Assembly (NCBI GenBank): GCA_030620115.1
Contig: JAUXFG010000069.1
Coordinates: 1-19,425 of the forward strand
Direction of reading: 5' to 3'
DNA length: 19,425 nucleotides
DNA from: Candidatus Fermentibacterota bacterium
GTDB taxonomy: Bacteria > JAFGKV01
Within the stretch, counting starts at the first letter, position 1. Each line of letters begins with the position of its first letter. The position numbers and the translations under genes were made by a program. Of the stretch, positions 1,801-18,295 are shown in pieces. The notes below the pieces were generated by a model. It searched no databases. It was given only the letters and a program-made list of their open reading frames with translations, and was not told where the DNA came from.

Positions 1801-2580
1801 TCAGATTAACATCACCCTCCAGCTTGTGAACTGGGCAAGCCAATGACTTGCAGCCGCGCAAGAAAGCAATAGCCCTGTTTCGATGAGTTCGCAGCATGCG
1901 CCGAGCAGGTCGCCGGTCACCCCGCCTACGCGGCGAAGGAACCAGAATCCAAGGAAGCGGCTGGCGATCCAGCCGCCTGTCAGGACGACCGCACCCGCCG
2001 GTCCGCTGACCGCAAGGAGCAGCAACAGTGCCAAAATCAGGGACCAAACGCGGTGATAGGATCGCGCGTCATCCACAAAAGGCTTTGCTGTTCCACTGCC
2101 TGGCCGGGCATATGGAAGACAAACAGCCAGTTCGACCAAGGTTGTCCTCGAGACGATACAGGCGGAAACGATCCAGTGAAAAGATCCCATTTCGATCAGA
2201 TGCGAAAAAGCAACCCATTTGCTCAGCAAGACAAGGACAAGCGCCATGACCCCGAAAGCACCCACATGTGAATCCTTCATGATGGCCAATATCTGCTCCC
2301 GATTCCGGCCTCCGCCGAAACCGTCGGCCCAGTCGGCCAGTCCATCGAGATGAAAGCCCCGCGTCAAGAGAACGCCTCCGACCAAAACAGCCCCGGCCGC
2401 ACCCTCGGACCAGCCGCCAGGAACGAGACTGAATGCCCTGGCCAGTCCCATAAGCATGACACCGAGCAGACAGCCCACCAGGGGGAACCACGGCAAGGCG
2501 TCGGACATTCGTTCGGCTTCCCTTCCGGGCGCCGGCAGGATTGAGAGAGTTCTTATCGCAGAGACAAATCCTTGGAGCAT
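1801..2580 (-). CDS. cobS: Adenosylcobinamide-GDP ribazoletransferase (cobalamin synthase)
   Basis: CobS is the membrane enzyme that joins adenosylcobinamide-GDP to alpha-ribazole (or its phosphate), the last step of nucleotide loop assembly. The 259-residue length is typical. The diagnostic HLDGLADWADGFGGG (residues 77-91) is present, with MKDSHVGAFG (101-110) just after it; these acidic residues bind the metal and substrate in the family. Several hydrophobic segments fit a polytopic inner-membrane protein (about 33-50, 63-75, 110-125 and two more in the C-terminal half). The ATG is three bases after the cobT stop, so translation is probably coupled. The stop is within the region that also held the start of the lost cobQ gene. 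Confidence 0.95.
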   Translation of the reverse strand: MLQGFVSAIRTLSILPAPGREAERMSDALPWFPLVGCLLGVMLMGLARAFSLVPGGWSEGAAGAVLVGGVLLTRGFHLDGLADWADGFGGGRNREQILAIMKDSHVGAFGVMALVLVLLSKWVAFSHLIEMGSFHWIVSACIVSRTTLVELAVCLPYARPGSGTAKPFVDDARSYHRVWSLILALLLLLAVSGPAGAVVLTGGWIASRFLGFWFLRRVGGVTGDLLGACCELIETGLLLSCAAASHWLAQFTSWRVMLI

Positions 2581-2583
2581 TTC

Positions 2584-3642
2584 TCAATCGTCTTTCTTTG
2601 AAACGCCAGCCGAATCAAATGTTGCCATCTCGTCATAGATCTTGACAGCCGCCTCAATCAGGGAGATGGCCAGCGCTGCTCCGGTTCCTTCGCCAAGACG
2701 TATTCCGAGGTCGAGAACCGGCCGGGCGTTGAACCGTTCGAAAAAAACGGCATGACCAGCCTCTGCTGAGAGATGGCTGAAAAAAAGATATTCCTCAACA
2801 TGAGGACACATCCTGCATGCAACGAGTGCCCCGGCCGAGGAGATGAACCCGTCAACGACAACAGGCACACGACGCGAAACGGCTCCGAGTGTGAGGCCGC
2901 AAATTCCCGCGATCTCCAGCCCCCCTATGGCCGCGAGAGCGCTCAACGGATCTGAGCAACGCTCTCTGTTCACTTCAATTGCCCGCTCAATAACCTTCAC
3001 CTTGTGCGCGAGTGTGTGGTCGTCGATTCCAGTACCCCGGCCGGTTATCTTCTCCACGGCGCAGGGCAAGAGCGCAGCGAAGATTGCAGACGAGGGCGTG
3101 GTGTTGCCGATACCCATCTCCCCGGTACCGATGAGGGTCGCGCCGCCGGCTGCGGCTTCCTGGGCCAGTCCAATGCCGACTTCAACAGCCCTTCGTGCTT
3201 CTTCCATCGTCATGGCCGGGCCTTTGGCTATATTTGCGGTTCCTGCCCGCACCTTCTTCGCAAGCAATCCTTGTGCGTCTTCCAACGGATCGTCGACGCC
3301 GATGTCGACCAGGCGAACTTCCGCCCCCGCATGCCGAGCCAGCACATTGACCGCAGCGCCGCCAGCCAAGATATTCCTGACCATCTGGGGCGTCACCGCC
3401 TTGGGATAGGCGGAAACCCCCTCGGCCACGACACCGTGATCCCCAGCAAAAGTGAAGATAATCTTCTTTCCCATGTGCGGCTTGTGTGTTCCGGTCGCGA
3501 GGCAGTAGCGCACCGCCAGCTCTTCCAGATGACCCAAACTGCCCGGCGGCTTGGTCAGGTTGTCGAGATGCGCGCGGATCTCATCCTCGCAGCCATGATC
3601 CACGGGGAGAATCTCAGCCATGGTCTCGTCCAGTAGACTCAT
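2584..3642 (-). CDS. cobT: Nicotinate-nucleotide--dimethylbenzimidazole phosphoribosyltransferase
   Basis: CobT transfers phosphoribose from nicotinate mononucleotide to a lower-ligand base such as 5,6-dimethylbenzimidazole, giving the alpha-riboside phosphate used by CobS. The 352-residue product from this start matches the usual length of about 350. Visible signatures are LTKPPGSLGHLEELA (29-43), FAGDHGVVAEGVSAYP (65-80), GEMGIGNTT (174-182) and RLGEGTGAALA (315-325), where E318 corresponds to the catalytic glutamate (E317 in Salmonella CobT). The frame is open upstream to 3729, but the ATG at 3642 is chosen because the protein then starts at the family N-terminus, GAGG lies before it, and it overlaps the cobU stop as ATGA. 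Confidence 0.96.
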   Translation of the reverse strand: MSLLDETMAEILPVDHGCEDEIRAHLDNLTKPPGSLGHLEELAVRYCLATGTHKPHMGKKIIFTFAGDHGVVAEGVSAYPKAVTPQMVRNILAGGAAVNVLARHAGAEVRLVDIGVDDPLEDAQGLLAKKVRAGTANIAKGPAMTMEEARRAVEVGIGLAQEAAAGGATLIGTGEMGIGNTTPSSAIFAALLPCAVEKITGRGTGIDDHTLAHKVKVIERAIEVNRERCSDPLSALAAIGGLEIAGICGLTLGAVSRRVPVVVDGFISSAGALVACRMCPHVEEYLFFSHLSAEAGHAVFFERFNARPVLDLGIRLGEGTGAALAISLIEAAVKIYDEMATFDSAGVSKKDD

Positions 3643-4169
3643 TCCGTCCCTCGTTTCACGATGATTGGAATTCCACTCACCATCAGTATGACGCAGTCTG
3701 CTCGCTCGGCCACCTGCTGGTTCACCCAACCGGCCAGGTCCCGGAAACGCCGGGCCAGGGCGTTATGTGGGACGATACCCATGCCTACTTCGTTGGAAAC
3801 GATGATGATGTGGCAGGGAGGCTCGCCAAGGAGGTCTAGGAACTGGGCGACTTCAGGATAGTCGTCATCCTTTTTCTCCCGGTGATGCATGAGATTGCCG
3901 AGCCAAACCGTAAGACAGTCAATCACGACCACTTCAACATCCGCGGAAAGCGATTCAAGCGCGCTTCCCAGCTCAAACGGATCTTCAATGGTAATAAACG
4001 AATCACCCCGATCTTCCCGGTGTTTTTTGATCCGCACTCGCATCTCGTCATCAAACGGCTCAGCGGTGGCGATAAGAGCCAGTCTGCCCTGATAGCCTTG
4101 CGCGAGAGACAATGCATGATGACTCTTGCCGCTCCGTCCGCCGCCAATAACGAATGTGATCTTTTTCAT
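3639..4169 (-). CDS. cobU: Adenosylcobinamide kinase / adenosylcobinamide-phosphate guanylyltransferase
   Basis: CobU phosphorylates adenosylcobinamide and then adds GMP from GTP, producing the adenosylcobinamide-GDP used by CobS. The 176-residue length is standard. The P-loop GGGRSGKS is at residues 9-16. H50 in RIKKHREDR corresponds to the histidine that is guanylylated in the Salmonella enzyme (H46). The segments VVVIDCLTVWLGNLM (80-94) and VSNEVGMGIVPHNALARRFR (124-143) are further family signatures. Its ATG overlaps the cbiR stop as ATGA and its TGA overlaps the cobT start as ATGA, so the three genes are almost certainly co-transcribed and translationally coupled. Confidence 0.96.
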   Translation of the reverse strand: MKKITFVIGGGRSGKSHHALSLAQGYQGRLALIATAEPFDDEMRVRIKKHREDRGDSFITIEDPFELGSALESLSADVEVVVIDCLTVWLGNLMHHREKKDDDYPEVAQFLDLLGEPPCHIIIVSNEVGMGIVPHNALARRFRDLAGWVNQQVAERADCVILMVSGIPIIVKRGTE

Positions 4170-4996
4170 CCAGCCAATCTCCTCATGATTTCCATTGACC
4201 TTTCGAATTCCGCGCGGCCGAAGACTTCCAGGGTCAGAACACGTTCTTTGTCGTTCTCCAAGCCAACGCGCTCGATCAACATTGCGGGAATCTGTGGATC
4301 CAGCGCGCCGATATCCTTGTGATCAGCCCCATCAAGATTGCCATGCAGGTGGATCACTCGGCATTGAGCCAGATACTTGTCCAAGTATTCCCGGATCGGA
4401 TATCCGTAAAAAGCAAGGTGCCCGACGTCGAGGCATACCGATAGGCCGTGGCGAGACACGATGTCAGCGACATACTCAAAAGGATAATCCAGTGTTTCCA
4501 CACACAGGTCTTCAGGTTCGGCGCCGGATAATTGCAGTTCACGCACCGAGCGGTCCAAGGCTCTTCTCCAGCATTCAATCTCCTGCGCAGGTCTCTTGCC
4601 ACGCATTTCACCGTGAAAATGAACTATGTACGCAAACGGAGCGAGCGGCCTGGTAATATCGACAATCCTCATGCATTGTTCGACGGATCGTCTTCGGACA
4701 ACCTCGTCCGGATTGCCCAATTGGATGTCGAGCGGCAGATGAACGGTATAGGTTAGCTGTCTCGTGCACTTCAGCTCCGCGAGTCTATCGATAACATCGG
4801 CATTCGGAAGATTCGATGCCTCTTCAGACTCAAAGAGCACAAGCTCTACATCATCTACCAACGGGCCGAGGAACTCCACGTTGGGGACGAGATCGGCGGG
4901 AAGAATGTATGATGTCGTACCCAGCCGAAAGGGGAACGCGCCTTTCATGGATGGTATAGGATACGCCGTTGGATTTGGGACTGTTTGTCTATGCAT
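4166..4996 (-). CDS. cbiR: CbiR-like cobamide remodelling hydrolase (AP endonuclease 2 / TIM-barrel superfamily)
   Basis: The 276-residue protein is a xylose isomerase-like TIM barrel. Its opening FPFRLGTTSYILPADLVPNV (residues 21-40) followed by VELVLFESE resembles CbiR, which in Akkermansia muciniphila hydrolyses the nucleotide loop of cobamides and so removes the lower ligand. Likely metal ligands lie at barrel strand ends: H86 (TVHLPLD), H126/H128 (VHFHGE), E167 (CVETLDYP), D190/H193 (CLDVGHL), H216/H218 (IHLHGN), D224/H226 and E257 (LTLEVF). Being first in an operon with cobU, cobT and cobS supports the remodelling role. The ATG at 4996 has GGGAG eight bases upstream; a TTG at 4999 and an internal ATG at 4948 are alternatives, the latter without a clear Shine-Dalgarno. 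The fold is certain; the specific activity is inferred. Confidence 0.82.
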   Translation of the reverse strand: MHRQTVPNPTAYPIPSMKGAFPFRLGTTSYILPADLVPNVEFLGPLVDDVELVLFESEEASNLPNADVIDRLAELKCTRQLTYTVHLPLDIQLGNPDEVVRRRSVEQCMRIVDITRPLAPFAYIVHFHGEMRGKRPAQEIECWRRALDRSVRELQLSGAEPEDLCVETLDYPFEYVADIVSRHGLSVCLDVGHLAFYGYPIREYLDKYLAQCRVIHLHGNLDGADHKDIGALDPQIPAMLIERVGLENDKERVLTLEVFGRAEFERSMEIMRRLAG

Positions 4997-5005
4997 CAAC
5001 TGTGT

Positions 5006-5040
5006 CTCCCGAGTTCTCTTGGTCCGGACTTCTCACCGGA
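5006..5040 (-). promoter_or_regulatory. Leader hairpin before cbiR, weak resemblance to part of a cobalamin riboswitch
   Basis: On the minus strand GAAATCCGGTGAGAAGTCCGGA (hairpin TCCGG/CCGGA at 5023-5040) resembles the conserved GAA-x-CCGGTGAGAATCCGG hairpin of cobalamin riboswitches. It is followed by CGGGAGACACAG, loosely like the AGGAGACC motif, and leads straight into the cbiR ribosome binding site. The conserved core CCCGCAACTGT and a clear B12 box are not visible, so this is at best divergent or decayed, and it may be chance. Confidence 0.25.
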
Positions 5041-5209
5041 TTTCGTTGCCTGTCCTAAGCCAACCGAAGGGCGAAACGGCTGAAGTGAAAAGAAATGCGG
5101 GTCAAGGTCAACCACATTCCCCATCTGTTCCATGGAAATTCCAGAATCCTTTCGGATATGCATGAAATATATGGGTTGGCCGCAAGGCGATGCCGGTTTC
5201 TGGATGCTT

Positions 5210-5239
5210 GATGCTGGAAGGAGAACGGAACGACTCCGG
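5210..5239 (-). repeat. 30-base repeat, copy 2 (inverted relative to 1658-1687)
   Basis: On the plus strand it begins GATGCTGGAAGGAG and ends CGACTCCGG; the reverse complement is identical to 1658-1687. It lies in the cbiR leader region, inside degenerate TGGATGCTTGATGCTGG / CCATCCAGTATCCAG sequence that can fold back on itself. The two copies bracket the cobamide operon and the cobQ remnant in opposite orientation. Confidence 0.8.
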
Positions 5240-5362
5240 GTTCCATCCAGTATCCAGTGACCAGCAACCAGCATCGCTGCGCCTCAATCAATGCGCCACG
5301 GCATCATCGCTCGTCGATTTGAGGCGCAGCTTCGCGAGAGATTTATGAAGAATACGAAATGC

Positions 5363-5391
5363 TTGACTGCGCCTTACCGGCCCGACATACT
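5363..5391 (+). promoter_or_regulatory. Candidate sigma70-type promoter for the C25 peptidase gene
   Basis: TTGACT (5363-5368) and CATACT (5386-5391) are separated by 17 bases and match the -35 and -10 consensus at 5/6 and 4/6 positions. The site would give a 5' leader of about 135 bases. Consensus rules in this lineage are unknown, so this is only a candidate. Confidence 0.3.
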
Positions 5392-5531
5392 GACGTCTCA
5401 TGATTTCTGCAGCACGTCTCGAATAGATCCAAGCCGCATGTGGATGACCATGAGACAAGGATCCGATGCCTGCTCAAGAAGCGAATCCTTGTCACTCTTT
5501 CCCGTCACAGGCCAATTCCTTGGAGGCAACG

Positions 5532-8500
5532 ATGCGCAAGCTATTCCGGTTCAGCCTTGCATTCCTTTTGATACTCGCCGCCGGCGCTCAGGCGAGGGTT
5601 GGCGTGCAGAAGCTCACACTCGACCCCACGACCGACGCCGAGAAACCGGTCTTTGCCGTTCTCGATGAAGAAGCCGGTTCCCTCCGCCTCGAGATACGAC
5701 TGCCGTTGCTGAATGTGGAGGAGATCATGGTAGGCGATGAGATCTATCAGGCTCTGACCATACCCGGCGGCGACATCCGGGGCGAGGCAGGACAGGCGGG
5801 GCTTCCTGTTTTCACCCGTCTCGTGGTGGTACCCGACAACGCTGCAGTGACCGTGCGGGTCCTGGACCATGAGAGACAGGTGCTGCCGGGCTACCGGGTC
5901 CTGCCCGTGCAGCCGGACGACGGCGAGGAGTTCGTGATTGACCGCGACTACTACGCGGAGGTCCGAAGCCTGGCACCCCCCGCCGTGGAGGTAGGCGACC
6001 CGGCCATCTTTCACCGCCTGCGCGTGGTGCCGGTGACTTTCAGCCCGGTAGAGTTCGATCCCAAAAGCGGCGAACTAACGGTGTGCTCACGCATGGAGGT
6101 GGAGCTTGACTTCAGCGGCCGGGATCTGCGGAACGCGGCGGCGCGGCAGCGCAGCCGAATCCCCGAGTCCTTCCATCGTATCTATCAGGACGTGGTGATC
6201 AACTACGACAGCTTCATGGATCGCAACGAGGCCCAGGTTTGTCCGGGCACCTACCTCTTGATCTACCCCCCTGAAAGCGGCGTCCTCACTCGCCTCCAAC
6301 CCCTCATCGACTGGCGCAAGAGGCAGGGGTACAACGTATTGACGGCCTCGACCAACACCACAGGCTCCACCAACAGTCTCATCAAGACCTACATCCAGAA
6401 CATCTACGATACGGTGGATCCGCCCCTGGAGTTCGTGGCCCTGGCCGGCGACGCGAATGGTACCTATGACGTGCCCTGCTGGTTCGAGAGCCTCTCGGGT
6501 TACGGCGGCGAGGGAGACCACTACTACACGACCCTTGAGGGGTCGGACATTCTCGCCGACGTTCACATCGGCCGTCTGTCATTCCGTGACCTGAGCACCC
6601 TCGAGGCCATCGTCGACAAGATCGTCACGTACGAAAGCAACCCGCCCACCAGCGACACTGGATGGTTCACGCGGGCCGGCCTGACTGGGGATCGAAGCTC
6701 ATCAGGTATCACCTGCATCTACGTAAACCAGTGGGTCAAGACACAGCTCCTTGCCGCCGGCTACACCCAGATCGACACCATCTTCACGAGCCCCTGGGTC
6801 AGCCAAATGACAAACAGCATCAATCAGGGACTCACGGTATTCACCTACCGGGGCTTTTTGAACATGAGCGGCATGGGCACGTCCAATATCCTCGGTTTGT
6901 CCAACGGCTATAAACTGCCCTTTGCCGTTATCGTGACCTGCGATACGGGCAGTTTTTCGGACGATGCCACTTGCCGCTCCGAGGCCTTCTTGCGCAATGC
7001 CAACGGCGGCGGTATCGGATCCGTGGGCTCGGCCACTTGGGGCACCCACACCCGCTACAACAACTGCTACTTCAACGGGGTCTGGGATGGGGCCATCAAC
7101 GGCTCGGAGCACCGGCTCGGCGCGTCACACACGCGCGGCAAGCTGAACCTCTACCTCAACTATCAGACTGCCCAGCCGAACAAGGTCGATATCTGGTCCA
7201 TGTGGAACACCCTCATGGGCGACCCGGCAACAGACATGTGGACGGGTTATCCCGCCGGTATGACTGTGGAATACCCCGATCCCTTCCCTGTGGACGCGAA
7301 TTCGGCGCCTGTCACGGTCACGGTCGGGACAATCCCGTTGGAAGACGCCCTGGTGACCCTATACAAGGCTGGAGAGATCCAGGTGAGCGGCTACACGGAC
7401 TTTGCGGGGCGGGTGAATCTGCCGATTTCGGCCTCAACAGCCGGTGAAATGCTGGTGACCGTCACCAAACACAATCGCTTCCCCCACCTAGGGAGCCTCA
7501 CCTTAGGTTCTGTTGGCACTTTCGTGGGTTACCACGACTCGGTTGTAGACGATGATCTCTCGGGCGGCAGTTCGGGGAATAATGATGGGATCGTCAACCC
7601 AGCAGAGAACATCGAGCTGTCCGTGGCCCTGCACAACTACGGGACCTCAGGGGCAACGGGCGTGACAGCGACGTTGTCGACGCTCGACACGTACGTGACC
7701 ATTACCGACTCGGAGGAGAACTTCGGGGACATCGGGGCCGACGCCACAGTATGGAGCGCCGAGGACTTTGATTTCAGCGTGGATCCGGCCACCCCGGATG
7801 GTCATGTGCTGGATCTGGACCTAGTGGCGAGCAGCCTCTCCTCTGACTGGACCTCCTTGATCCAGTTGACCGTGCAGAGCGCGGCCTTCAGCATGGAAGA
7901 CTTCACCTGGGGCGGCGGCGGTGGCAGTCTGGACCCAGGCGAGTCAGGAAGCCTGAGCATCGAAATCCGAAACCTGGGCAGTATCCTCGGAGCCGGCGTG
8001 ACAGGCGAATTGAGCACGGAGAGCCCCTGGATTGAGATCACCGACGCCAATGGTAGTTTCGGAAGTATAGGCGTGGGATCCACAGCGGAAAACGCGAGCG
8101 ACCCCTTTGCCCTGATCGTCTCCGGAGACTGCTTTAAGGGCCACCAGGCAAACTTCACCTTGACCCTGACCTTCAACGGACAAGCCCAGGACATTGTGGA
8201 ATTCACCCTCACCGTAGGCAATACCACCAGCAGCGACCCCGTGGGTCCCGACGCCTACGGCTACTATGCCTTCGATAATACGGATGTCGGTTATCCATTC
8301 GCGCCTACGTATAACTGGCTCGAGATCGACCCCAATTATGGCGGTTCCGGCACGGACGTAGGGCTCAGCGATTTCGGCTGGGAGCAGGATGACACGAGAA
8401 TCATGGATCTGCCCTTCATCTTCCGCTTCTATGGTCAGGACTACGACGAGATCAGCATCTGCTCCAATGGCTGGGTTGTTATGGGCCGGACCTACCTGAA

Positions 8501-10328
8501 GCACTACTGCAACCGTGCCCTGCCCAGCTCAGGCAGCCCCGACGCCCTGATCTGCCCCATGTGGGACAACCTCTACCAGACGGGGAGCAATAGGGTCTAT
8601 TATTTGAACGACACGGTGAACCATCGTTACGTGATACAGTGGAGTCGCGTGAAAAATGATTACAGCAATGCTACCCAAAACTTCGAGATGATCCTCTACG
8701 ACCCGAACTTTTATCCCACCTCTTCGGGCGATGGGGAAATTCTCTTCCAATACGCCACGGTCAACAATACGGACAGCCGGGATGGCTACGTTACGGTGGG
8801 CATCCAGAACCAAGACCACACGGACGGCCTCCTCTATACCTACTGGAATCATTACGAGCCGGGAGCAGCAACCCTAAGCTCGGGGCGAGCCATCCGCATC
8901 CTACCGGTAGGAGCCATGGCTTTCGGTACCCTGGAGGGCGACATAACCAATACCTCCAATGGGGGCACGCCCATCCAAGGCGTAAACATCCGGGTATTGG
9001 AGGCGAATCAAACCCTCGTCAGCGACAGCGACGGTCACTACTTCGGCTCCGTGCAAGAAGGTACCTACACGGTACGAGCGGAGCACTACAGCTTCGACCC
9101 CGTGACTGAAACGGATGTGGAGATCATCGAAGATCAGACCACAGTGCTCGACTTCAGCTTGACGGACATCCTGGGGCCTGAGATTTCCAATACCACGGTT
9201 CATCCTTGCACGGATGATACCGATGGGCCCTACGTGATCGAAACCTATATCACCGACTTCTCGACAATCAACGAAAGACATCTCTACTACAAAATCAACG
9301 GCAGCGGTCAATTCGAGGTGCCTTTGGTCTTGATCGACGCGGAGACGGGCCTTCATCGGGGCGAGATCCCGGGTTACCCATTCAACACAGAGATCAGCTA
9401 CTGGGTGGAAGCCGAGGATATCGTGACCAACGAGAGCCGCGACCCGGAAGGCACGGATACCTACGACTTCTGGATCCTCAACTCGGTCACGATCTTCGCG
9501 GACGACATGGAAGACGACCAGGGATGGACCGTTGGCGATGCTGGTGACGATGCGTCGGCAGGCATCTGGGAGCGCGTGGACCCCAACGGTGTCTGGGAAG
9601 GAGCCACCGAGGTTCAGCCCGAGGACGACGCGACGCCCCCAACAGGCATAATGTGCTACATCACCGGCAACGATCCACCCGGTTCGAGCCAGGGCACCGA
9701 CGACGTGGATGGAGGCAAAACGACTCTACTCAGCCCATGGTTCGACCTCTCCGGGGTCATGGAGGCCTTTGTCAGCTACCGACGTTGGTACACCAACGAC
9801 ACGGGCTATAGTCCAGGCGAAGACTACTGGGTGGTACAGGTGACCGACAACGGCAGCAACTGGGTAAACCTGGAGAATACCAATACCAGCGATCGGAGCT
9901 GGGCGCTCAAAACCTTCGTTCTTGACGATTACGTGGAGCTGACGAGCACAGTACGTTTTCGCTTTATCGCGTCCGACGAGGGGGACGGCTCGGTGGTGGA
10001 GGCCGGCGTGGACGAGTTCGAGCTCATAGGCTTTCAAACAATGACTCTCTCCGGCAACGTATCGGCGGGGGAGCTTGTACTTGACTGGACAGCGATACCA
10101 GGGACGACCAACTACTGGGTCCATGGCGCTGACAACGATGTCTACTTCGAGCCGAGCACCGGAAACAGGTTGGCGATAGTACCCGGCGAAACAATCACCT
10201 GGTCAAGCGCCAACGGCATCGAAGATTCAGACCACAACTGGACCTATCTGGTCCTCGCGGTCGACGCCTCCGAGCAGGAAATCAACCGATCCAATCGATA
10301 TGGGGAGTATGATGTAGTGTGCCCCTGA
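5532..10328 (+). CDS. Secreted multidomain C25 (gingipain-type) cysteine peptidase homologue
   Basis: This 1598-residue protein starts MRKLFRFSLAFLLILAAGAQ, a signal peptide with likely cleavage after AQA (about residue 21); GGAGG lies five bases before the ATG. Residues about 40-210 look like the gingipain propeptide and 239-575 like the C25 caspase-like domain (GTYLLIYPPE, LEFVALAGDA, DVHIGRLS). The nucleophile is probably C470 in PFAVIVTCDTGSF. The usual GHG histidine position reads TYRGF (439-441), so the dyad is not canonical; H506 in GTHTRYNN is another candidate. Then come a C25-type Ig domain (about 575-670), two CARDB-like repeats with GIVNPAEN/GSLDPGES (690-910), a beta-rich domain with SICSNGWVVMG (910-1130), a carboxypeptidase-regulatory-like fold (1132-1210), a MAM/jelly-roll-like domain (1323-1500) and a final Fn3-like domain. 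The frame from an earlier ATG at 5466 lacks a signal peptide at its N-terminus and is not preferred. Confidence 0.9.
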   Translation: MRKLFRFSLAFLLILAAGAQARVGVQKLTLDPTTDAEKPVFAVLDEEAGSLRLEIRLPLLNVEEIMVGDEIYQALTIPGGDIRGEAGQAGLPVFTRLVVVPDNAAVTVRVLDHERQVLPGYRVLPVQPDDGEEFVIDRDYYAEVRSLAPPAVEVGDPAIFHRLRVVPVTFSPVEFDPKSGELTVCSRMEVELDFSGRDLRNAAARQRSRIPESFHRIYQDVVINYDSFMDRNEAQVCPGTYLLIYPPESGVLTRLQPLIDWRKRQGYNVLTASTNTTGSTNSLIKTYIQNIYDTVDPPLEFVALAGDANGTYDVPCWFESLSGYGGEGDHYYTTLEGSDILADVHIGRLSFRDLSTLEAIVDKIVTYESNPPTSDTGWFTRAGLTGDRSSSGITCIYVNQWVKTQLLAAGYTQIDTIFTSPWVSQMTNSINQGLTVFTYRGFLNMSGMGTSNILGLSNGYKLPFAVIVTCDTGSFSDDATCRSEAFLRNANGGGIGSVGSATWGTHTRYNNCYFNGVWDGAINGSEHRLGASHTRGKLNLYLNYQTAQPNKVDIWSMWNTLMGDPATDMWTGYPAGMTVEYPDPFPVDANSAPVTVTVGTIPLEDALVTLYKAGEIQVSGYTDFAGRVNLPISASTAGEMLVTVTKHNRFPHLGSLTLGSVGTFVGYHDSVVDDDLSGGSSGNNDGIVNPAENIELSVALHNYGTSGATGVTATLSTLDTYVTITDSEENFGDIGADATVWSAEDFDFSVDPATPDGHVLDLDLVASSLSSDWTSLIQLTVQSAAFSMEDFTWGGGGGSLDPGESGSLSIEIRNLGSILGAGVTGELSTESPWIEITDANGSFGSIGVGSTAENASDPFALIVSGDCFKGHQANFTLTLTFNGQAQDIVEFTLTVGNTTSSDPVGPDAYGYYAFDNTDVGYPFAPTYNWLEIDPNYGGSGTDVGLSDFGWEQDDTRIMDLPFIFRFYGQDYDEISICSNGWVVMGRTYLKHYCNRALPSSGSPDALICPMWDNLYQTGSNRVYYLNDTVNHRYVIQWSRVKNDYSNATQNFEMILYDPNFYPTSSGDGEILFQYATVNNTDSRDGYVTVGIQNQDHTDGLLYTYWNHYEPGAATLSSGRAIRILPVGAMAFGTLEGDITNTSNGGTPIQGVNIRVLEANQTLVSDSDGHYFGSVQEGTYTVRAEHYSFDPVTETDVEIIEDQTTVLDFSLTDILGPEISNTTVHPCTDDTDGPYVIETYITDFSTINERHLYYKINGSGQFEVPLVLIDAETGLHRGEIPGYPFNTEISYWVEAEDIVTNESRDPEGTDTYDFWILNSVTIFADDMEDDQGWTVGDAGDDASAGIWERVDPNGVWEGATEVQPEDDATPPTGIMCYITGNDPPGSSQGTDDVDGGKTTLLSPWFDLSGVMEAFVSYRRWYTNDTGYSPGEDYWVVQVTDNGSNWVNLENTNTSDRSWALKTFVLDDYVELTSTVRFRFIASDEGDGSVVEAGVDEFELIGFQTMTLSGNVSAGELVLDWTAIPGTTNYWVHGADNDVYFEPSTGNRLAIVPGETITWSSANGIEDSDHNWTYLVLAVDASEQEINRSNRYGEYDVVCP

Positions 10329-10401
10329 GAATAGCTCAAAGGTGCTACTGAACCATTCGGCTGATAGACGCTGTCGTCTGTCCCCCCGGTGCGAAGTCAC
10401 C

Positions 10402-10593
10402 TCCCTCCATTGGACAAAACGTACACATCCTCCTCTGGAGGGCCATGCTTCGTCATGGCCGCCGTCGGTACCGATGCCGCGGACGCGACAGAGCGCGTCC
10501 CTCCATTGGACAAAACGAACACATCCTCCTGTGGAGGACCATACTCCGTCATGGCCGCCGTCAGTACCGATACCGCGGATGCGATCCGCCAGC
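10402..10593. repeat. Imperfect 96-base tandem duplication between convergent genes
   Basis: Unit 1 starts at 10402 and unit 2 at 10498; both open TCCCTCCATTGGACAAAACG and both contain CGTCATGGCCGCCGTC and TACCGAT. They differ at scattered positions, so the duplication is not recent. The period is a multiple of three, which keeps long frames open on both strands (for example 10342-10647 plus and 10227-10631 minus), but their content is repeat-driven and no protein family is recognisable. This repeat fills most of the 299-base gap between the C25 and FG-GAP genes. Confidence 0.85.
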
Positions 10594-10600
10594 TGGCGGA
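10585..10600. repeat. 16-base palindrome, locus 1 (related to 17937-17952)
   Basis: TCCGCCAGCTGGCGGA is a perfect palindrome at the end of the tandem repeat block and 28 bases from the FG-GAP stop. A copy with one change (TCCGTCAGCTGGCGGA) lies at 17937-17952. It could act as a terminator stem for the convergent genes, but there is no T-tract. Confidence 0.75.
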
Positions 10601-10627
10601 CGTTCCTCCCTAGCCCAAATCCCATCC

Positions 10628-12427
10628 TCAAGGGATGTCGGTCATGAAATCAAATACTCCAGTACCCGTTGAAAGCTCGGACATGTTTCCGGATTCATCA
10701 ACAGTGAAGAGCCGATAGTAGTAGAAATTGTCAACATCCCCTAGTACGTCCACCGTATCTGTGGCTGTGGTTTGCGGATGGATTGCCGCAGGTAGATAGG
10801 AGACAAACGTCCTGGGCTCATTAATCAACGGTTGCCTATGGCGAAGCACGCGATAGAATAGCACATATTCGAACTCGCCGCTCGTGTCTTGTGTGACCTG
10901 GCTCCACGTCAGTGTGGCATGCCCCGACACGTCGTATTCCGCGTCAAGATCGGTAGTCCGTGCAGGAGGGGTCGTATCATCGCCATAGTTGCTCGGAATC
11001 ACAAACACCGTGCCTGCATCATACCCGGCATGGGGATCAGCCGCGGCCCCGATCAACAGATCGGGGAGGCCATCATTGTTCACATCCCCTCCGGCAACAC
11101 TGCAGCCTGCCCAAAACTTGCCCTCCATTCCTTTCCATCCGCCTTCGCTCTCCTCAATATCCAGTTCTGATGGCCATGCTCCTCTACCAAGAACGGCGTA
11201 GGCTTTTCCGGGTCCACCATCATAATAGGGTGCACCGATGGCGAAATCGTCATAGCCGTCGCTGTTTACGTCTCCCAGCGCGGCCATTGCGTCGCCAGTG
11301 GAAAGATTTGCTCCCAGGATGTGGGTATCAGCATTGGTTATCGGTACGTCTGATGCCGGCAGGATAAGAGAACTGCCCAAAAAGAGATAAACGTGACCGA
11401 TTCCAATCCGAGAGGAGATGAGGAAATCACCTTTCCCGTCGTGGTCCGTGTCGCCCGCGCCAGAGACATGATATCCGACTTCATCGCCACCGGCTTCGCC
11501 CACGATTGAAAGGTCGGCATAGACCAAGCTATCATTGAGGCTCCATCCACTGGCCCTTCCCAGGACGAGGTACGCCTTGCCCATAAATAGATTGCTACTG
11601 TCAGGCGTATACTTCGGGGCGCCAATGAGGATTTCATCGCAACCATCACCATTGAGATCAGGAACGCCTGATACCGAGAACCCGGCCCGACTGAAACCCA
11701 TTTCGTCCTGTTCCCCAACGAATGAAGCATCTGCTTTGGAAAGAGAAACCGGGACCGACGTCCAATCATCCTTGCCCAGAATAAGGTAGACTTTTCCGCT
11801 GCCGATGAAGGGAACCCCGACGAGGAAATCACCCCTCCCGTCGCCGTTCACGTCACCTGCTGAAGCAATGGCAGGTCTTCCCATGAATGCCTCGCCCACG
11901 AATGAGGCATCAGCTGAAAAGAGGGTATCATCATGTGCCCAACCAGTTTCCTTGCCGAAGATGATGTAGACCTTCCCATAGTCCATCCCCGCCTCATCAT
12001 TACCTGGGGAAGCGACGACTATGTCGTCGTAGATGTCGCCGTTCACGCTGGGAACAATCGCTAAGCCGGCCGATCCACCTTCCTGCGCCCCTCCCGGGTG
12101 ATCAAGATCGACCTCACCCTTGAGACTCGCATCTGAAGCTGCAACAATATCGAGTTCTGGCTGCCAACCCGAAGCGGAGCCGAACACAATGAAAACGGTT
12201 CCCAGTTCTATTCCTCCGGTCGCATCAAAGGGTGCAGCGAACACCATATCGTCAATGCCATCACCATTGACATCCCCCCCGGAGGCAATACAAAGGCCCA
12301 ACTTCGCCTCGGATATCGAGCCCATCCAGGACCAGGGGGCAGACCAGGTATACTGATCCTGCTCCCACGCAAGAGCGCCAACGGTAGACAACGAGACGAT
12401 CACCAAGATCTTGAGCGCAGTGTTCAT
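10628..12427 (-). CDS. Secreted FG-GAP (integrin alpha-like) seven-bladed beta-propeller protein
   Basis: The 599-residue product begins MNTALKILVIVSLSTVGALA, a signal peptide of about 20 residues, and GGAGG lies six bases upstream of the ATG. Seven FG-GAP units can be counted by their calcium-binding cores: GDVNGDGIDD (51), PSVNGDIYDD (126), GDVNGDGRGD (191), PDLNGDGCDE (256), GDTDHDGKGD (325), GDVNSDGYDD (385) and GDVNNDGLPD (447). Most units also carry the GxVYxxxG strand (for example GKVYIIFGK). Units two and five have weakened acidic loops. This fits a closed seven-bladed propeller like the integrin alpha head. Residues about 487-590 look like an Fn3-type domain. Such proteins usually mediate surface binding; the ligand is unknown. 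It is convergent with the C25 gene and divergent from the M14 gene. Confidence 0.9.
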   Translation of the reverse strand: MNTALKILVIVSLSTVGALAWEQDQYTWSAPWSWMGSISEAKLGLCIASGGDVNGDGIDDMVFAAPFDATGGIELGTVFIVFGSASGWQPELDIVAASDASLKGEVDLDHPGGAQEGGSAGLAIVPSVNGDIYDDIVVASPGNDEAGMDYGKVYIIFGKETGWAHDDTLFSADASFVGEAFMGRPAIASAGDVNGDGRGDFLVGVPFIGSGKVYLILGKDDWTSVPVSLSKADASFVGEQDEMGFSRAGFSVSGVPDLNGDGCDEILIGAPKYTPDSSNLFMGKAYLVLGRASGWSLNDSLVYADLSIVGEAGGDEVGYHVSGAGDTDHDGKGDFLISSRIGIGHVYLFLGSSLILPASDVPITNADTHILGANLSTGDAMAALGDVNSDGYDDFAIGAPYYDGGPGKAYAVLGRGAWPSELDIEESEGGWKGMEGKFWAGCSVAGGDVNNDGLPDLLIGAAADPHAGYDAGTVFVIPSNYGDDTTPPARTTDLDAEYDVSGHATLTWSQVTQDTSGEFEYVLFYRVLRHRQPLINEPRTFVSYLPAAIHPQTTATDTVDVLGDVDNFYYYRLFTVDESGNMSELSTGTGVFDFMTDIP

Positions 12428-12739
12428 GTTTATCCTCCAAGAATAATGATACTACCGGGAGCAGCCCATCGGAATATCAACACTCTAGCCGAGTGGTATC
12501 TGAAGCCTTGAATCTATCGGCCAACGGCTTCCGGTCAATCGCGCTCTGATACATCCAAGTCCGTGCGGAGCCCCGGGGCAGCCCCCTGGGCGGTGGGCCG
12601 GTGAATCGTTCAATTTGGGTGACGATGTGCCAATATGTTCATAAGCTGATCTGGTTGAGTTGAACATGTCCTGCACAGATCCCATGATGTATGTTCAACG
12701 TGAAGGAATTGAGGGAAACGAACAAAAGGAGCAAAGATC
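12428..12739. other. Divergent intergenic region between FG-GAP and M14 genes, with an inverted repeat
   Basis: This 312-base region must hold the promoters of both flanking genes, but no strong -35/-10 pair stands out. A 9-base inverted repeat, GTTGAACAT at 12659-12667 and ATGTTCAAC at 12691-12699 (23-base loop), lies 41 to 81 bases before the M14 start and could be an operator. Bases 12570-12604 are a GC-rich run (GCCCCGGGGCAG, CCCCCTGGGCGG) of unknown role. No gene is seen. Confidence 0.55.
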
Positions 12740-15379
12740 ATGGCAAATTCTCGTACATTGATCGTTGCGTTTCTATGTCTGGCCCTTCCGGCACTCCTTG
12801 TATTTCCATTGTGGGCCATCGAGATGCCGGAGCCCAGAATCCAGGCGCGGGTTGATTTCGACTCCATGTCTGAGTGGCAGAGGTTCCTGGCTGTCCGTGA
12901 CCTTGATCTCATGAATGTGAAGTGCGCTCATCATGCTCGAATCGTCACGGATGCGGAGCAGCTTGAGCAGCTTCGGTCTCTTGGATTCGCCGTGACCGTG
13001 GAGATCGAGAACATGGAGGAGTTCTACGCCTGCAGGATCAGTGGGGACAACTTCGGTGACTACCACACCTATTCCGAGACCGAGCAATTCCTGGACGATC
13101 TGCATGCTTCTTGGCCATGGATAACCACCGCAAAGATGACCATCGGCACGAGCCATGAGGGGCGCGACATCTGGGCAATGAAGATCTCAGATAATCCCGA
13201 ATCGAACGAGGACGAGCCCGAAGTGCTGTTCGACGCCCTCCACCATGCGCGAGAGCCCATGTCCTTGGAAGTCGTACTCTACTACATGACGTGGCTCTGT
13301 GAGAACTACGGGAACGATCCTGATGCCGCGTTCCTTGTTGACAACCGGGAGATCTGGTTTGTCCCTGTCGTCAACCCGGATGGCTACGTATTTAATGAGA
13401 TGACCTATCCCGCAGGCGGCGGGATGTGGCGAAAGAACAGACGGGATAACGGGGATGGCACATGGGGGGTGGATCCGAACAGGAACTACCCCTACGAATG
13501 GGGCAGAGATGATGGCTCTTCGTCTGACCCGGCGAGCCAGATCTATCGCGGCCCATACGCTGCCTCGGAACCCGAAGTCCGGGCCGTAATGAACCTCATG
13601 AAAGACCATGAGTTCTTTTCACACCTGACATTCCATTCTGTCGCAGGCATGATCCTCGTACCCTGGAGTTTCACAAGCAGTCCCCCGCCTGACGACTGGA
13701 TTCTGAGACGATGGGGAAACGAGATGGCCAAGTTCAATGACTATGCAGTGGGCCAGTCGAATGAGCTCCTGTACTTGTGCAGCGGAACTACGGGGGACTA
13801 CGCGTACGGGGAACAGGTGGAGAAGAACAAGATCATGTCGTGCTGCGTTGAGGTTGCCGGAAGTGGTTTCTGGCCGGAAGAGAATGAGATACCTGCCCTG
13901 AATGAGGAATGCTTGTGGCCCCAGATCTGTGCTACCTGGGTTGCCGGGGTCTACCTGGAGCTTGGCGCTATTGCTCTTTCAGGAGGAAATGAGGACGGGA
14001 AGCCCGATCCTGGAGAGACGCTCGAGCTCGTCGCCATGATCAAGAATGAGGCGCTGTCTGCAGACGCGGAGAACGCGGTGATTACGCTCAGCACGGATGA
14101 CCCATATGTTCAGCTCCACGATGCGAGTTCTTTTCTTGGCGCCATTGTGTGCCCATGGACAGTACAAAACACGGAGGATCCTTTCCGATTCTCGCTTCAT
14201 CCTTCCACTCCCGACGGGCATCTGTTGGCCATGACGATTGCTCTGAATGCAGATGGATTCTCCCGTCAGGAGAATACCGAGTGGAACGTGGGCCGGCCCT
14301 TTGTCAGCTTGTCTGATGATATGGAAAACGGGATTGGGAATTGGATCAGCGGTGATCATTCCTGGGGATTGACGACTTCGATTTCTCACTCACCGGACTA
14401 CTCGTATGCCGACAGCCCGGTGGGTGACTACTCCAATTTGACAAACACATGGATAGAACTAACCAATCCACTTGATCTGAGCCAGGTGGACACCGCCAAT
14501 CTGTCGTTCTGGCATTGGCACAATACTGAGGAGAACGCGGATTACTGTTATGTCGAAGCCTCTGATGACGATGGCGGCACCTGGCGCCAGATCGGATCGA
14601 GGTACCACGGGACGAGCGAAGACTGGGAGCAGGTTGCGCTATCATTAGCCGACTACGTTGGCTCACCGAACTTCACGCTACGATTCAGATTGGAATCGGA
14701 TCCATATGTCACCGCGGATGGCTGGTACATCGACGACGTGCTGATCACTGAGCCGCCAAACATGAACACCAGGCCCACCGCGCCAACACTCTTGAGCCCG
14801 GTTGACGGAAGCATGCTCTATACGCCTTCTCCAACCCTTGCAGTATTGAATTCCTCCGACGCGGATCGTTCAGACAAACTGACATACGGATTCTTCTTGT
14901 ACGCCGATGAATTGCTCACCCAGCTCGTGGCTTCTGCATCCAACATACCTCCACGGCGTGCCAATACCGAGTGGACGGTGGATCTCACGCTGGATGACGG
15001 TACGTATTGGTGGCAGGCCTATGCTGACGACGGTACGGAGAGAAGCCCGCTCATGTCCGCGGCTTCGTTCACCGTGGATGCCTCCCGTTTCGAAATACCG
15101 AGCACGGTAGCGCTTCTCGGCCCGCAACCAAACCCGTTCGAGGATGAGATGCTCCTTGGTTTTGAGCTCCCTTCAAGGAGCGATACCAGGATCACCATAT
15201 ACAACCTCCATGGCCGCACCGTACGTACGCTCATCCACGGAAAACGAGGACAGGGTCGAGGAAACGTGACCTGGGACGGCTCCGACAACCGAGGACGGAG
15301 AGTCGCCAGCGGAGCCTACCAGGTCAGGCTTGAGGCCTGCGGCGTCATGAGATCGAGGAAACTGGTGGTACTGAGATAA
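12740..15379 (+). CDS. Secreted M14 family zinc carboxypeptidase with FlgD-like C-terminal domain
   Basis: The 879-residue protein starts with a signal peptide (about residues 1-26, LIVAFLCLALPALLVFPLWA); AAGGAG lies eight bases before the ATG. The M14 domain spans about 105-415. Zinc ligands by family alignment are H169 and E172 (LHHARE) and H299 (FHS). N247-R248 (VDPNRNY) correspond to N144-R145 that bind the substrate carboxylate in carboxypeptidase A, and E371 (CCVEVAG) to the general base E270. So the active site looks complete. Behind it are a CARDB-like domain with DGKPDPGETLEL (about 415-510), a MAM/jelly-roll-like domain (about 520-670), an Fn3-like domain (about 675-780), and a C-terminal FlgD Ig-like domain (PNPF, ITIYNLHGRTVRTL, VTWDGSDNRGRRVASGAYQV), which in FCB-related bacteria is often linked to secretion or surface attachment. 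Confidence 0.93.
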   Translation: MANSRTLIVAFLCLALPALLVFPLWAIEMPEPRIQARVDFDSMSEWQRFLAVRDLDLMNVKCAHHARIVTDAEQLEQLRSLGFAVTVEIENMEEFYACRISGDNFGDYHTYSETEQFLDDLHASWPWITTAKMTIGTSHEGRDIWAMKISDNPESNEDEPEVLFDALHHAREPMSLEVVLYYMTWLCENYGNDPDAAFLVDNREIWFVPVVNPDGYVFNEMTYPAGGGMWRKNRRDNGDGTWGVDPNRNYPYEWGRDDGSSSDPASQIYRGPYAASEPEVRAVMNLMKDHEFFSHLTFHSVAGMILVPWSFTSSPPPDDWILRRWGNEMAKFNDYAVGQSNELLYLCSGTTGDYAYGEQVEKNKIMSCCVEVAGSGFWPEENEIPALNEECLWPQICATWVAGVYLELGAIALSGGNEDGKPDPGETLELVAMIKNEALSADAENAVITLSTDDPYVQLHDASSFLGAIVCPWTVQNTEDPFRFSLHPSTPDGHLLAMTIALNADGFSRQENTEWNVGRPFVSLSDDMENGIGNWISGDHSWGLTTSISHSPDYSYADSPVGDYSNLTNTWIELTNPLDLSQVDTANLSFWHWHNTEENADYCYVEASDDDGGTWRQIGSRYHGTSEDWEQVALSLADYVGSPNFTLRFRLESDPYVTADGWYIDDVLITEPPNMNTRPTAPTLLSPVDGSMLYTPSPTLAVLNSSDADRSDKLTYGFFLYADELLTQLVASASNIPPRRANTEWTVDLTLDDGTYWWQAYADDGTERSPLMSAASFTVDASRFEIPSTVALLGPQPNPFEDEMLLGFELPSRSDTRITIYNLHGRTVRTLIHGKRGQGRGNVTWDGSDNRGRRVASGAYQVRLEACGVMRSRKLVVLR

Positions 15380-15554
15380 CTCTTAGTGCGGGAACCGGGA
15401 GAGACGCAGGTGATAGGATGTGCCCGCGGATCCTCGAGGAGCTATCGATTACCCTGTCGAGATCTTGCCATGTCTTGGAAACATCTATAACCGAGACACT
15501 CGAATAACTCCCTATTCTTGTCTGTGCGCCATCCACAATGCCCCAATACCAAGA

Positions 15555-16753
15555 TCAGACCCCCGCGCAATCACCAGCCCCGGCTCGAACTGACAGCAGG
15601 TTCCGAAGCTCCTTGACAGAACGCTCCACGGCCGTGAGAGCCGATATCACGAGCTCATCGGAGGTGAGATCAACGCCAGTCTCCCGAAGCAGATCCAAAG
15701 GAGGCTTGGAGGATCCGCCTTGCAGAAGGACGAGATACTTCCTCGCCGTATCCTGATCTTCGGCCAAAACCCTGGAACAGATATCGAGCGCCGATGCCGT
15801 GCCAACCGCGTACTTGTAGACATAATAATCGCGATAGAAATGTGGTATGCGACCCCAATGAACCTCAATAAGCTTGTCTTGATCGTCAAAAGAAAAGGCA
15901 GCCCCATAATACTGCTTGATCAGTCTATAATACGTGTCGTTCAGGTATTCCGAAGTAAGCGCTCCTCCCTTCTCGACCATATCATGAATCTTCCTCTCGA
16001 ACTCCGCAAGCATGATCGGCCCATGGAGCGTGATTCCGAAGCGTCTGAGCCGATAGTCGATCAGCCGAATTCGCTCCTATAGAAACCAAGGAATGCGTTC
16101 TTTCTGATCGTTCTGTCTCTTGACTCGAGGAACTGCTCAATATTGCTGTTGGTCAGCTGCACCTCCTTGCCATCTTGGCCAGCCACTTCGGGGAGACGAG
16201 CAGGCCGCTCCACATCGTTCAGCAATCTGAACGCTTTGCCGAAGCCCTATAGGGGCTCTCGCGCCATATCGAGAAGACGCTCTTCGCTTTCGCTCAGCAT
16301 GTGTGAGCGAAAGCAAAGTCGATCCTCCAGCCATGATAGATAGGGCCGCAACTCACGAGTCTCGATCCATTCGCTCATTCTATCCTCTGGGATTCTCAGA
16401 AGTTCGGGGATAAGGAATGACGAAGCAGCAGCATAGTCTGTCACTCGCGAGATGATTCTGGCCAGCATGTCCTGATACGTGGTTCGAGAAAGATCTTCGT
16501 CTCGCCTATGGTAGGCGTAGGTGTAGAGCTTATCCAGAAGCCGATTGTGCATAAGAAACCGGTCAAGTCCGGATGCAATCCTGGCTGGAGATCGAGATAG
16601 CGTGTCAGACCACGAGGCGATCTCTCCGGGAAATCCTTCGACCCTCCGGAAGTCTTGCTCCCACGCTTCGTCCGAACTGTAGAGAGCTTCCAGATCCCAC
16701 CTATCCTCAATAGGAACTTCCGCCCTATCCGTTGGCTTGCTGGTCATGGCCAA
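15555..16753 (-). pseudogene. pepF: Oligoendopeptidase F (M3 family) pseudogene: nonsense codon plus internal deletion
   Basis: Intact M3 oligoendopeptidases have about 600 residues and a central HEXXH zinc site. Here the N-terminal part (16753-16250) reads well: VPIEDRWDLEALYSSDEAWE onward to MAREPL. An in-frame TAG at 16249-16247 follows, and the same frame resumes as GFGKAFRLLNDVE, VQLTNSNIEQFLESRDR and RKNAFLGFYRSEFG to about 16070. The sequence then jumps, in another frame, to RLIDYRLRRFGITLHGPIM and AEFERKIHDMVEKG, and continues through RIPHFYRDYYVYKYAVG and SALDICSRVLA to a normal C-terminus at 15555. About 200 residues, including HEXXH, are missing at an EcoRI-like GAATTC near 16067-16072. 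No active peptidase can be made. Two independent lesions argue against a simple sequencing error. Confidence 0.9.
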
Positions 16754-17225
16754 GCTCCTCCCCTCGCAATCTTCAGATCAAATCGACCGATTCATGTGTG
16801 TGTCGTAGAATACTGATTACAGGATCAGGAAGCAAGATCAAGGAGGTGGGTGGCAGAGAAAGGCAAGGATCCACTACTGAGGCCAAGCAATCTCCCTGAT
16901 CCACCCGGTATTCCCGGCTGCTCACCTGGCTCCCGCCCCATGGTGATTGCCCAGCGTTGCTGCCACGAGAGCCCACGCCTGCCCACGTAATAGTCTGGAA
17001 GGCCATAGGCCGCCAGGGCCTCTAACCCCGCAATCCAGCAATCCCACATTTCGCTTTTCCCCTCTCCTCTCCCCTCCCCCTAGATTGCCAGATTTGTAGA
17101 TTGTCATATTATAGATTCCCAATCGCTGAACCTTCCGACCTCCATACACGCTATACCAATGAGACAGGTACATTCGCAGATGCGGTGGGTTCGCATCGAA
17201 CCGCCGCGCCAACAAGGAGGGGATC
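16754..17225. other. Intergenic region upstream of the tonB-like gene
   Basis: This 472-base region has no recognisable gene. Bases 17055-17080 are a pyrimidine-rich run (CCCCTCTCCTCTCCCCTCCCCC), and 17081-17105 hold degenerate TAGATTG repeats like those of dispersed intergenic DNA. A promoter-like pair is at 17085-17112. A minus-strand frame at 16825-17049 is open but matches nothing I recognise and has no ribosome binding site that I can see. Confidence 0.55.
17085..17112 (+). promoter_or_regulatory. Candidate promoter for the tonB-like gene
   Basis: TTGCCA (17085-17090) and TATTAT (17107-17112) match the -35 and -10 consensus at 5/6 each with a 16-base spacer. The leader to the ATG at 17226 would be about 105 bases. 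The -35 lies inside degenerate TAGATTG repeats, so the match could be chance. Confidence 0.4.
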
Positions 17226-17858
17226 ATGCGTGAACCAACTACGTCGCCATCCAAGCGAGAACGTCTCTCAGCCAGGATCTTTCACCGAAGAGCGTTGCTC
17301 CTGGCGCTTCTCGTGCATCTTTTCGTTTTCGTTGCCGCGCCTACCTATTCCATCCGAGTAAAAGCCCCCTCACCTCCGACAATCACCGTAATGCCTTTCC
17401 TACCGACACCTGACATGCCGCCAGAGAAGAAGCCGATTCCTCGGCCTCCGATGATAGTTGAGGTTGCTGATGACGAGGAACTTGTTGACAATGAATTCGA
17501 CATCCAGCCCACCGATCTCGAATACTGGGACGACAAGCGCGTGGAGGAGCCTGCGCAGATGCTTCCGCCCCCAAACACGGTCATCCCCCACGACACACCC
17601 CCTGCGATCATCCGGCCCCCGAGTCCCAAATATCCGGAGATTGCCCGCATGGCGGGTTTGGAAGGACGGGTTTTCGCGCGCTTGTTCGTGGGAAAAGACG
17701 GGAGAGTGAAGCAAGTCGTGATCATGCCCGGTAACGAGATCTTCCATGATGAGGTGCGCAAGGCTGCCTTTGATCTTCACTTCTCCCCCGCCATGATGGG
17801 CGACAGAAAGGTCGGCGTCTGGGTCTCTGTACCCTTCGACTTCTCCTTGGAGGATTAG
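17226..17858 (+). CDS. TonB-like energy transducer
   Basis: The 210-residue protein has the TonB layout. A basic cytoplasmic start (RERLSARIFHRR) leads into one transmembrane segment at about 23-43 (ALLLALLVHLFVFVAAPTYS) with a buried H31, like the functionally important histidine in the TonB anchor. A proline-rich periplasmic linker covers about 46-135 (PTPDMPPEKKPIPRPP, PPPNTVIPHDTPP). The TonB C-terminal domain is at about 133-208, starting SPKYPEIARMAGLEGRVFAR. Such proteins pass ExbBD proton-motive energy to outer-membrane transporters; no exbB, exbD or receptor gene is in the window. AAGGAGG lies five bases before the ATG. The cobamide operon nearby would benefit from TonB-dependent B12 uptake, but nothing here shows that link. 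Confidence 0.9.
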   Translation: MREPTTSPSKRERLSARIFHRRALLLALLVHLFVFVAAPTYSIRVKAPSPPTITVMPFLPTPDMPPEKKPIPRPPMIVEVADDEELVDNEFDIQPTDLEYWDDKRVEEPAQMLPPPNTVIPHDTPPAIIRPPSPKYPEIARMAGLEGRVFARLFVGKDGRVKQVVIMPGNEIFHDEVRKAAFDLHFSPAMMGDRKVGVWVSVPFDFSLED

Positions 17859-17926
17859 CCCGAACTTCTCACCACACGCTTCGCTTGGATGCATATGCGA
17901 AGCCTTGGGTGCGGGACTACGCCTCC

Positions 17927-17959
17927 GGGGGCACGGTCCGTCAGCTGGCGGATGCCCCC
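17927..17959. repeat. Hairpin element containing the 16-base palindrome, locus 2
   Basis: GGGGGCA (17927-17933) pairs with TGCCCCC (17953-17959), enclosing TCCGTCAGCTGGCGGA (17937-17952), itself palindromic but for one position and nearly identical to 10585-10600. It lies about 70 bases past the tonB stop and could work as a terminator without a T-tract, or be a REP-like dispersed element. Confidence 0.65.
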
Positions 17960-18087
17960 ACATGGGGGAAACCAATTCTGAGGCAGATCCGTGCACCAAG
18001 ACTGCGAACCAATTCTGGGATGTTTCAGAATAGGCCTGGAAGTGCTTTACACTTTCGGAACCCTCCATGCAATGACTGAGGCCCGGT

Positions 18088-18161
18088 GTCATCGCGAGCG
18101 ACAGCGCGGCGATCCCGCGTACCGCGCGGGATTGCTTCGTCGCTACCCTCCTCGCAATGAC
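18088..18161. repeat. REP/MITE-like imperfect palindrome of about 74 bases
   Basis: The ends GTCATCGCGAG (18088-18098) and CTCGCAATGAC (18151-18161) are inverted repeats with one mismatch. Inside, AGCGAC (18097-18102) pairs with GTCGCT (18139-18144), and GCGATCCCGCG pairs with CGCGGGATTGC around the loop TACCG. The whole can fold into one long stem. Its edge sequence (GTCATTGCGAG type) resembles dispersed intergenic repeats seen in many environmental genomes. No transposase is nearby. Confidence 0.7.
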
Positions 18162-18295
18162 TGAGGGTGGGGCTACGGTCCCGGGATCTCTCTACGGGAT
18201 TCTGTATTCCTATCTTGAGCCGTAGCGATAGACCGAGACCATAAAACGAGAGAATGAAGCATCCGCCTATTCTTGCGCGAATCCCTATTGAGAAG

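Follow-up and report, generated by a model that had tools for sequence, protein, structure and literature searches.

The window analysed here, a stretch of 19,425 nucleotides, corresponds to contig C61 of a 4.1-Mb genome that is 98.3% complete. Between positions 1801 and 4996, its minus strand carries four ORFs (cbiR, cobU, cobT, and cobS), each with an ATG start and a TGA stop, and the following features can be assigned:

4166-4996, minus strand: cbiR, first gene of the operon, predicted cobamide phosphodiesterase of the AP endonuclease 2 superfamily (NCBIfam NF041277, 261 bits, cut-off 105)
4166-4169, minus strand: ATGA overlap of the cbiR stop and the cobU start
3639-4169, minus strand: cobU, predicted adenosylcobinamide kinase / adenosylcobinamide-phosphate guanylyltransferase (PF02283, 190 bits; NCBIfam PRK05800, 182 bits, cut-off 161)
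3639-3642, minus strand: ATGA overlap of the cobU stop and the cobT start
2584-3642, minus strand: cobT, predicted nicotinate-nucleotide--dimethylbenzimidazole phosphoribosyltransferase (TIGR03160, 454 bits, cut-off 319; PF02277, 458 bits)
1801-2580, minus strand: cobS, predicted adenosylcobinamide-GDP ribazoletransferase (TIGR00317, 120 bits, cut-off 110; PF02654, 177 bits)

Both overlaps are read directly from the nucleotide sequence, as is the gap of 3 nt (2581-2583) that separates cobT from cobS. All four ORFs lie where the original prediction had placed them, and the two ATGA overlaps and the 3-base gap that it described are exact. CobU, CobT, and CobS each score above their curated NCBIfam cut-off, in agreement with Pfam, and the four predicted product identities are far beyond chance. 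Since cobU, cobT, and cobS follow cbiR and are coupled by overlaps, CbiR is located beside cobamide biosynthesis genes.

Rfam analysis of the whole window reports no cobalamin riboswitch upstream of cbiR. In the 4900-5600 stretch, the single Rfam match, to mir-763, is implausible. No transporter gene is found near the operon, and no sigma-70-like promoter stood out for it, the four sites found being all on the plus strand. The operon is flanked by 59-nt inverted repeats (1638-1696 and 5201-5259), the core of which, GGAGTCGTTCCGTTCTCCTTCCAGCATCC, is present in 24 copies in the genome (at most 3 mismatches; 0 in the control), 22 of them on other contigs. As this core is a genome-wide dispersed repeat, the flanking repeats, which resemble the ends of a mobile element, do not speak for a transposable unit. 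Because the repeat recurs on other contigs and the G+C content of the contig agrees with that of the genome, the contig is most likely native to the host genome and not a contamination. Downstream of the operon, an antitoxin of the Phd/YefM type and a PIN-domain toxin form a pair on the minus strand (902-1509), their genes abutting at position 1279. On the other side, the 5466-19414 segment encodes several large, probably secreted proteins, including a gingipain-type peptidase of family C25, a protein with FG-GAP repeats, and an M14 carboxypeptidase that has a FlgD-like tail, as well as a TonB C-terminal protein and a serpin. At 15558-16753 on the minus strand, a gene for oligopeptidase F (M3) appears broken, its N- and C-terminal fragments being in different frames and much of the middle missing.

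No PF00590 tetrapyrrole methylase over the cut-off and no CbiB are found in the host genome, and de novo corrin synthesis is therefore absent genome-wide; the earlier remark that no corrin-ring genes were in view thus holds for the whole genome. PF00590 likewise returns no match over the cut-off in any of three related genomes (the host, G000, and G001 and G002), with matches in 14 of 14 control genomes. On account of this result in the three genomes, the usually widespread 16S rRNA methylase RsmI seems to be absent from the lineage too. The only FecCD permease of the host belongs to a BtuF-BtuD-BtuC-like cluster on contig C5, which scores below the BtuFDC equivalog cut-offs and whose substrate is therefore presumptive. 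Regarding the use of cobamides, the genome encodes a MetH-like protein, an MTTB-type methyltransferase accompanied by a corrinoid protein, 22 B12-binding domains, and the adenosylcobalamin-dependent class II ribonucleotide reductase NrdJ (570 bits, C180:8428-10320).

The operon very likely serves to remodel the lower ligand of cobamides along the route that was published in 2020 for Akkermansia; the reaction, the sequence of steps, and what they are for are proposed here by analogy with that work. The CbiR of A. muciniphila converts AdoCbl and MeCbl into Cbi-P and alpha-ribazole, requires anaerobic and reducing conditions, and is inhibited by EDTA; seven cobamides are substrates, and the enzyme enables cobamide remodelling in E. 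coli (PMC7733943). By analogy, the CbiR of the window would cut the phosphoribosyl bond of the nucleotide loop of an imported cobamide, yielding AdoCbi-P and an alpha-riboside, so that the expected products are alpha-ribazole and AdoCbi-P, not alpha-ribazole phosphate. CobU would then act as guanylyltransferase to convert AdoCbi-P into AdoCbi-GDP, no other CobU activity being needed, while CobT would form an alpha-ribotide from nicotinate mononucleotide and the base preferred by the cell. CobS would join AdoCbi-GDP and the alpha-ribotide into a cobamide phosphate, and the last step would fall to a phosphatase encoded outside the operon, possibly a CobC-like protein on contig C254. Unable to make B12 itself, the host could thus probably still cut B12-type molecules that it imports and rebuild them with a preferred lower ligand. 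In outline, this agrees with the remodelling function originally proposed for the operon, given the gene identities, their coupling, the conserved metal-site residues, and a genome that lacks corrin-ring synthesis but encodes BtuFDC-like import proteins and enzymes that depend on cobamides. Counting against it are the adenosyltransferase not found in the genome (see below) and the lack of a transporter gene or cobalamin riboswitch close to the operon.

The same enzymes would do both remodelling and cobinamide salvage, and the operon might instead serve mainly salvage and nucleotide-loop assembly, with CbiR as an auxiliary enzyme for recycling cobamides that are damaged or in surplus. CobU, CobT, and CobS alone make up the classical salvage set (PMC9426561, PMC8092220), and salvage would be useful regardless to a host devoid of ring synthesis. 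However, cbiR is the first gene and is translationally coupled to cobU, the cbiR-first order recurs across several phyla, in seven other loci, and pure salvage has no need of a cutting enzyme, which makes this explanation improbable as compared with remodelling.

Remodelling assigns the cutting step to the first protein, which is identified as CbiR by every test available, as had been predicted. The match to the equivalog model NF041277 covers residues 23-272 of the protein and positions 1-248 out of 249 of the model, with a score 2.5 times the cut-off, while the best endonuclease IV model reaches 16 bits only. In the alignment, H86, H126, E167, D190, and H193 are kept in 84 of 84 CbiR relatives, and H216, H226, and E257 in 82 of 84, the remaining two being gapped at those positions. 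From what is known of endonuclease IV, we take these conserved positions to be the metal site. Such an assignment of the conserved His/Asp/Glu positions follows from the place of CbiR in the AP-endonuclease-2 superfamily (PMC7733943). In a quick tree, whose rows do not include the Akkermansia sequence itself, the 84 CbiR sequences split with a support of 92 from five other members of the superfamily, two of them from the host genome. The AlphaFold2 model is a TIM barrel of the AP-endonuclease-2 type (mean pLDDT 94.9, pTM 0.91), which compares with solved sugar isomerases/epimerases and endonuclease IV with Z values of 22-26, the closest folds being a tagatose-epimerase-like protein, xylose isomerases, and endonuclease IV. 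As a sequence search of the PDB reports no solved CbiR but only an endonuclease IV (5zhz, E 0.008), this structural ranking cannot decide between subfamilies. That the first protein is another AP-endonuclease-2 enzyme, an endonuclease IV or a sugar isomerase/epimerase found by chance within a cob operon, would fit these nearest folds and the fact that Pfam by itself gives only AP_endonuc_2, but is hardly credible against the 261 bits of the CbiR model, the position inside CbiR in the tree, and the cob genes that accompany the protein here and in the loci of its relatives.

Not all steps of the route are encoded in the operon. CobS yields a cobamide phosphate, from which CobC has to remove the phosphate (PMC8092220), and the substrates of both CobU and CobS reportedly have to be adenosylated (PMC9426561). 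Neither CobC nor an adenosyltransferase is present within the operon. The earlier statement that it holds exactly the four enzymes needed is therefore incomplete: the operon covers the cutting, activating, and joining steps, but the phosphatase and the adenosyltransferase fall outside it. The sole histidine phosphatase found in the genome, the CobC-like protein mentioned above, scores 134 bits with TIGR03162 (cut-off 163) and slightly better, 141 bits, with the phosphoserine phosphatase model (cut-off 350), and earns neither name. Neither PF01923 nor PF02572 returns a match in the 98.3% complete host genome, in which the adenosyltransferase of a complete adenosylcobamide salvage set is hence not recognisable; PF01923 (PduO type) is present in both genomes of the same family. 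Given this reported requirement of CobU and CobS, the missing adenosyltransferase is a real gap, which could be filled by the import of adenosylated cobamides, by an unrecognised enzyme, or by a gene in the missing ~2% of the genome. The same gap concerns NrdJ, which depends on AdoCbl.

The enzyme, the pathway, and the link to cobamide genes are already published and curated, and this kind of operon is real but already described from many bacterial phyla. CbiR of A. muciniphila (Amuc_1679), encoded in a cobDQ-cbiB-cobT-cobS-cobU locus (PMC7733943), belongs to the same curated family as the window protein and shares its conserved His/Asp/Glu metal-site residues. Both organisms possess the partners CobU, CobT, and CobS and are devoid of de novo corrin synthesis. 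In contrast to the A. muciniphila locus, the operon described here is a compact cbiR-first unit without adjoining cbiB or cobDQ, CbiB being absent from the whole host genome. Remodelling by the amidohydrolase CbiZ, in Rhodobacter and Dehalococcoides, likewise removes the lower ligand and makes way for another. However, CbiZ cuts an amide bond, after which the linker must be rebuilt, whereas CbiR cuts the phosphoribosyl bond and skips this rebuilding (PMC7733943). CbiB is not encoded by the host genome.

The view that CbiR has been found chiefly in Akkermansia and a small number of other bacteria is outdated, as homologues had been reported from 22 phyla by 2020, with Chlorobi, Chloroflexi, and Proteobacteria accounting for 76% of them and the PVC superphylum for few (PMC7733943). 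Gene order was compared in 80 loci from one scan of genome contigs and in 3 from further genomes, many of which end at contig ends. The order cbiR-cobU-cobT-cobS is common to at least seven other loci, found in Planctomycetota (L038 and L089), in Deltaproteobacteria/Thermodesulfobacteriota/Proteobacteria (L040, L061, and L063), and in Verrucomicrobiota (L041 and L046, cobU and cobT being further apart in L046). In many other loci, cbiR adjoins cobU, cobT, or cobS in different orders. For each of the four window genes, the closest full operons are L038, L089, and L040, the last from a deltaproteobacterium; they rank first to third among the matches for CobU, CobT, and CobS and within the top five for CbiR (identities of 47-52% for CbiR, 56-60% for CobU, 66-72% for CobT, and 54-57% for CobS). 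Together with L041, they share the gene order and direction of the window operon and have similar ATGA overlaps. These four nearest loci also carry either a BtuC-type permease gene before cbiR or a BtuFDC set after cobS, whereas the importer of the window genome is encoded on another contig; such neighbours fit import followed by remodelling.

As all four genes have the same closest full operons, the cassette probably moved horizontally as one unit. The forks around the window CbiR are weakly supported in the quick tree, so that neither the direction nor the donor of a transfer can be read from it. CbiR and CobT return no match in either genome of the same family, from which the operon is taken to be absent on the basis of these two proteins. 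A more specific scenario can be put forward tentatively, although we consider it rather unlikely as a whole: a mobile four-gene cassette would have reached a single genus within a poorly sampled lineage otherwise without lower-ligand genes, and would work there without a known adenosyltransferase, either because CbiR, CobU, and CobS act on imports that are already adenosylated or because an unrecognised adenosyltransferase exists.

While this mechanism has been in the literature since 2020, the operon places cobamide remodelling in one more poorly known bacterial lineage. It also indicates that cbiR travels between phyla together with cobU, cobT, and cobS as one unit, and it helps to predict which uncultured bacteria use many forms of B12 while making none.
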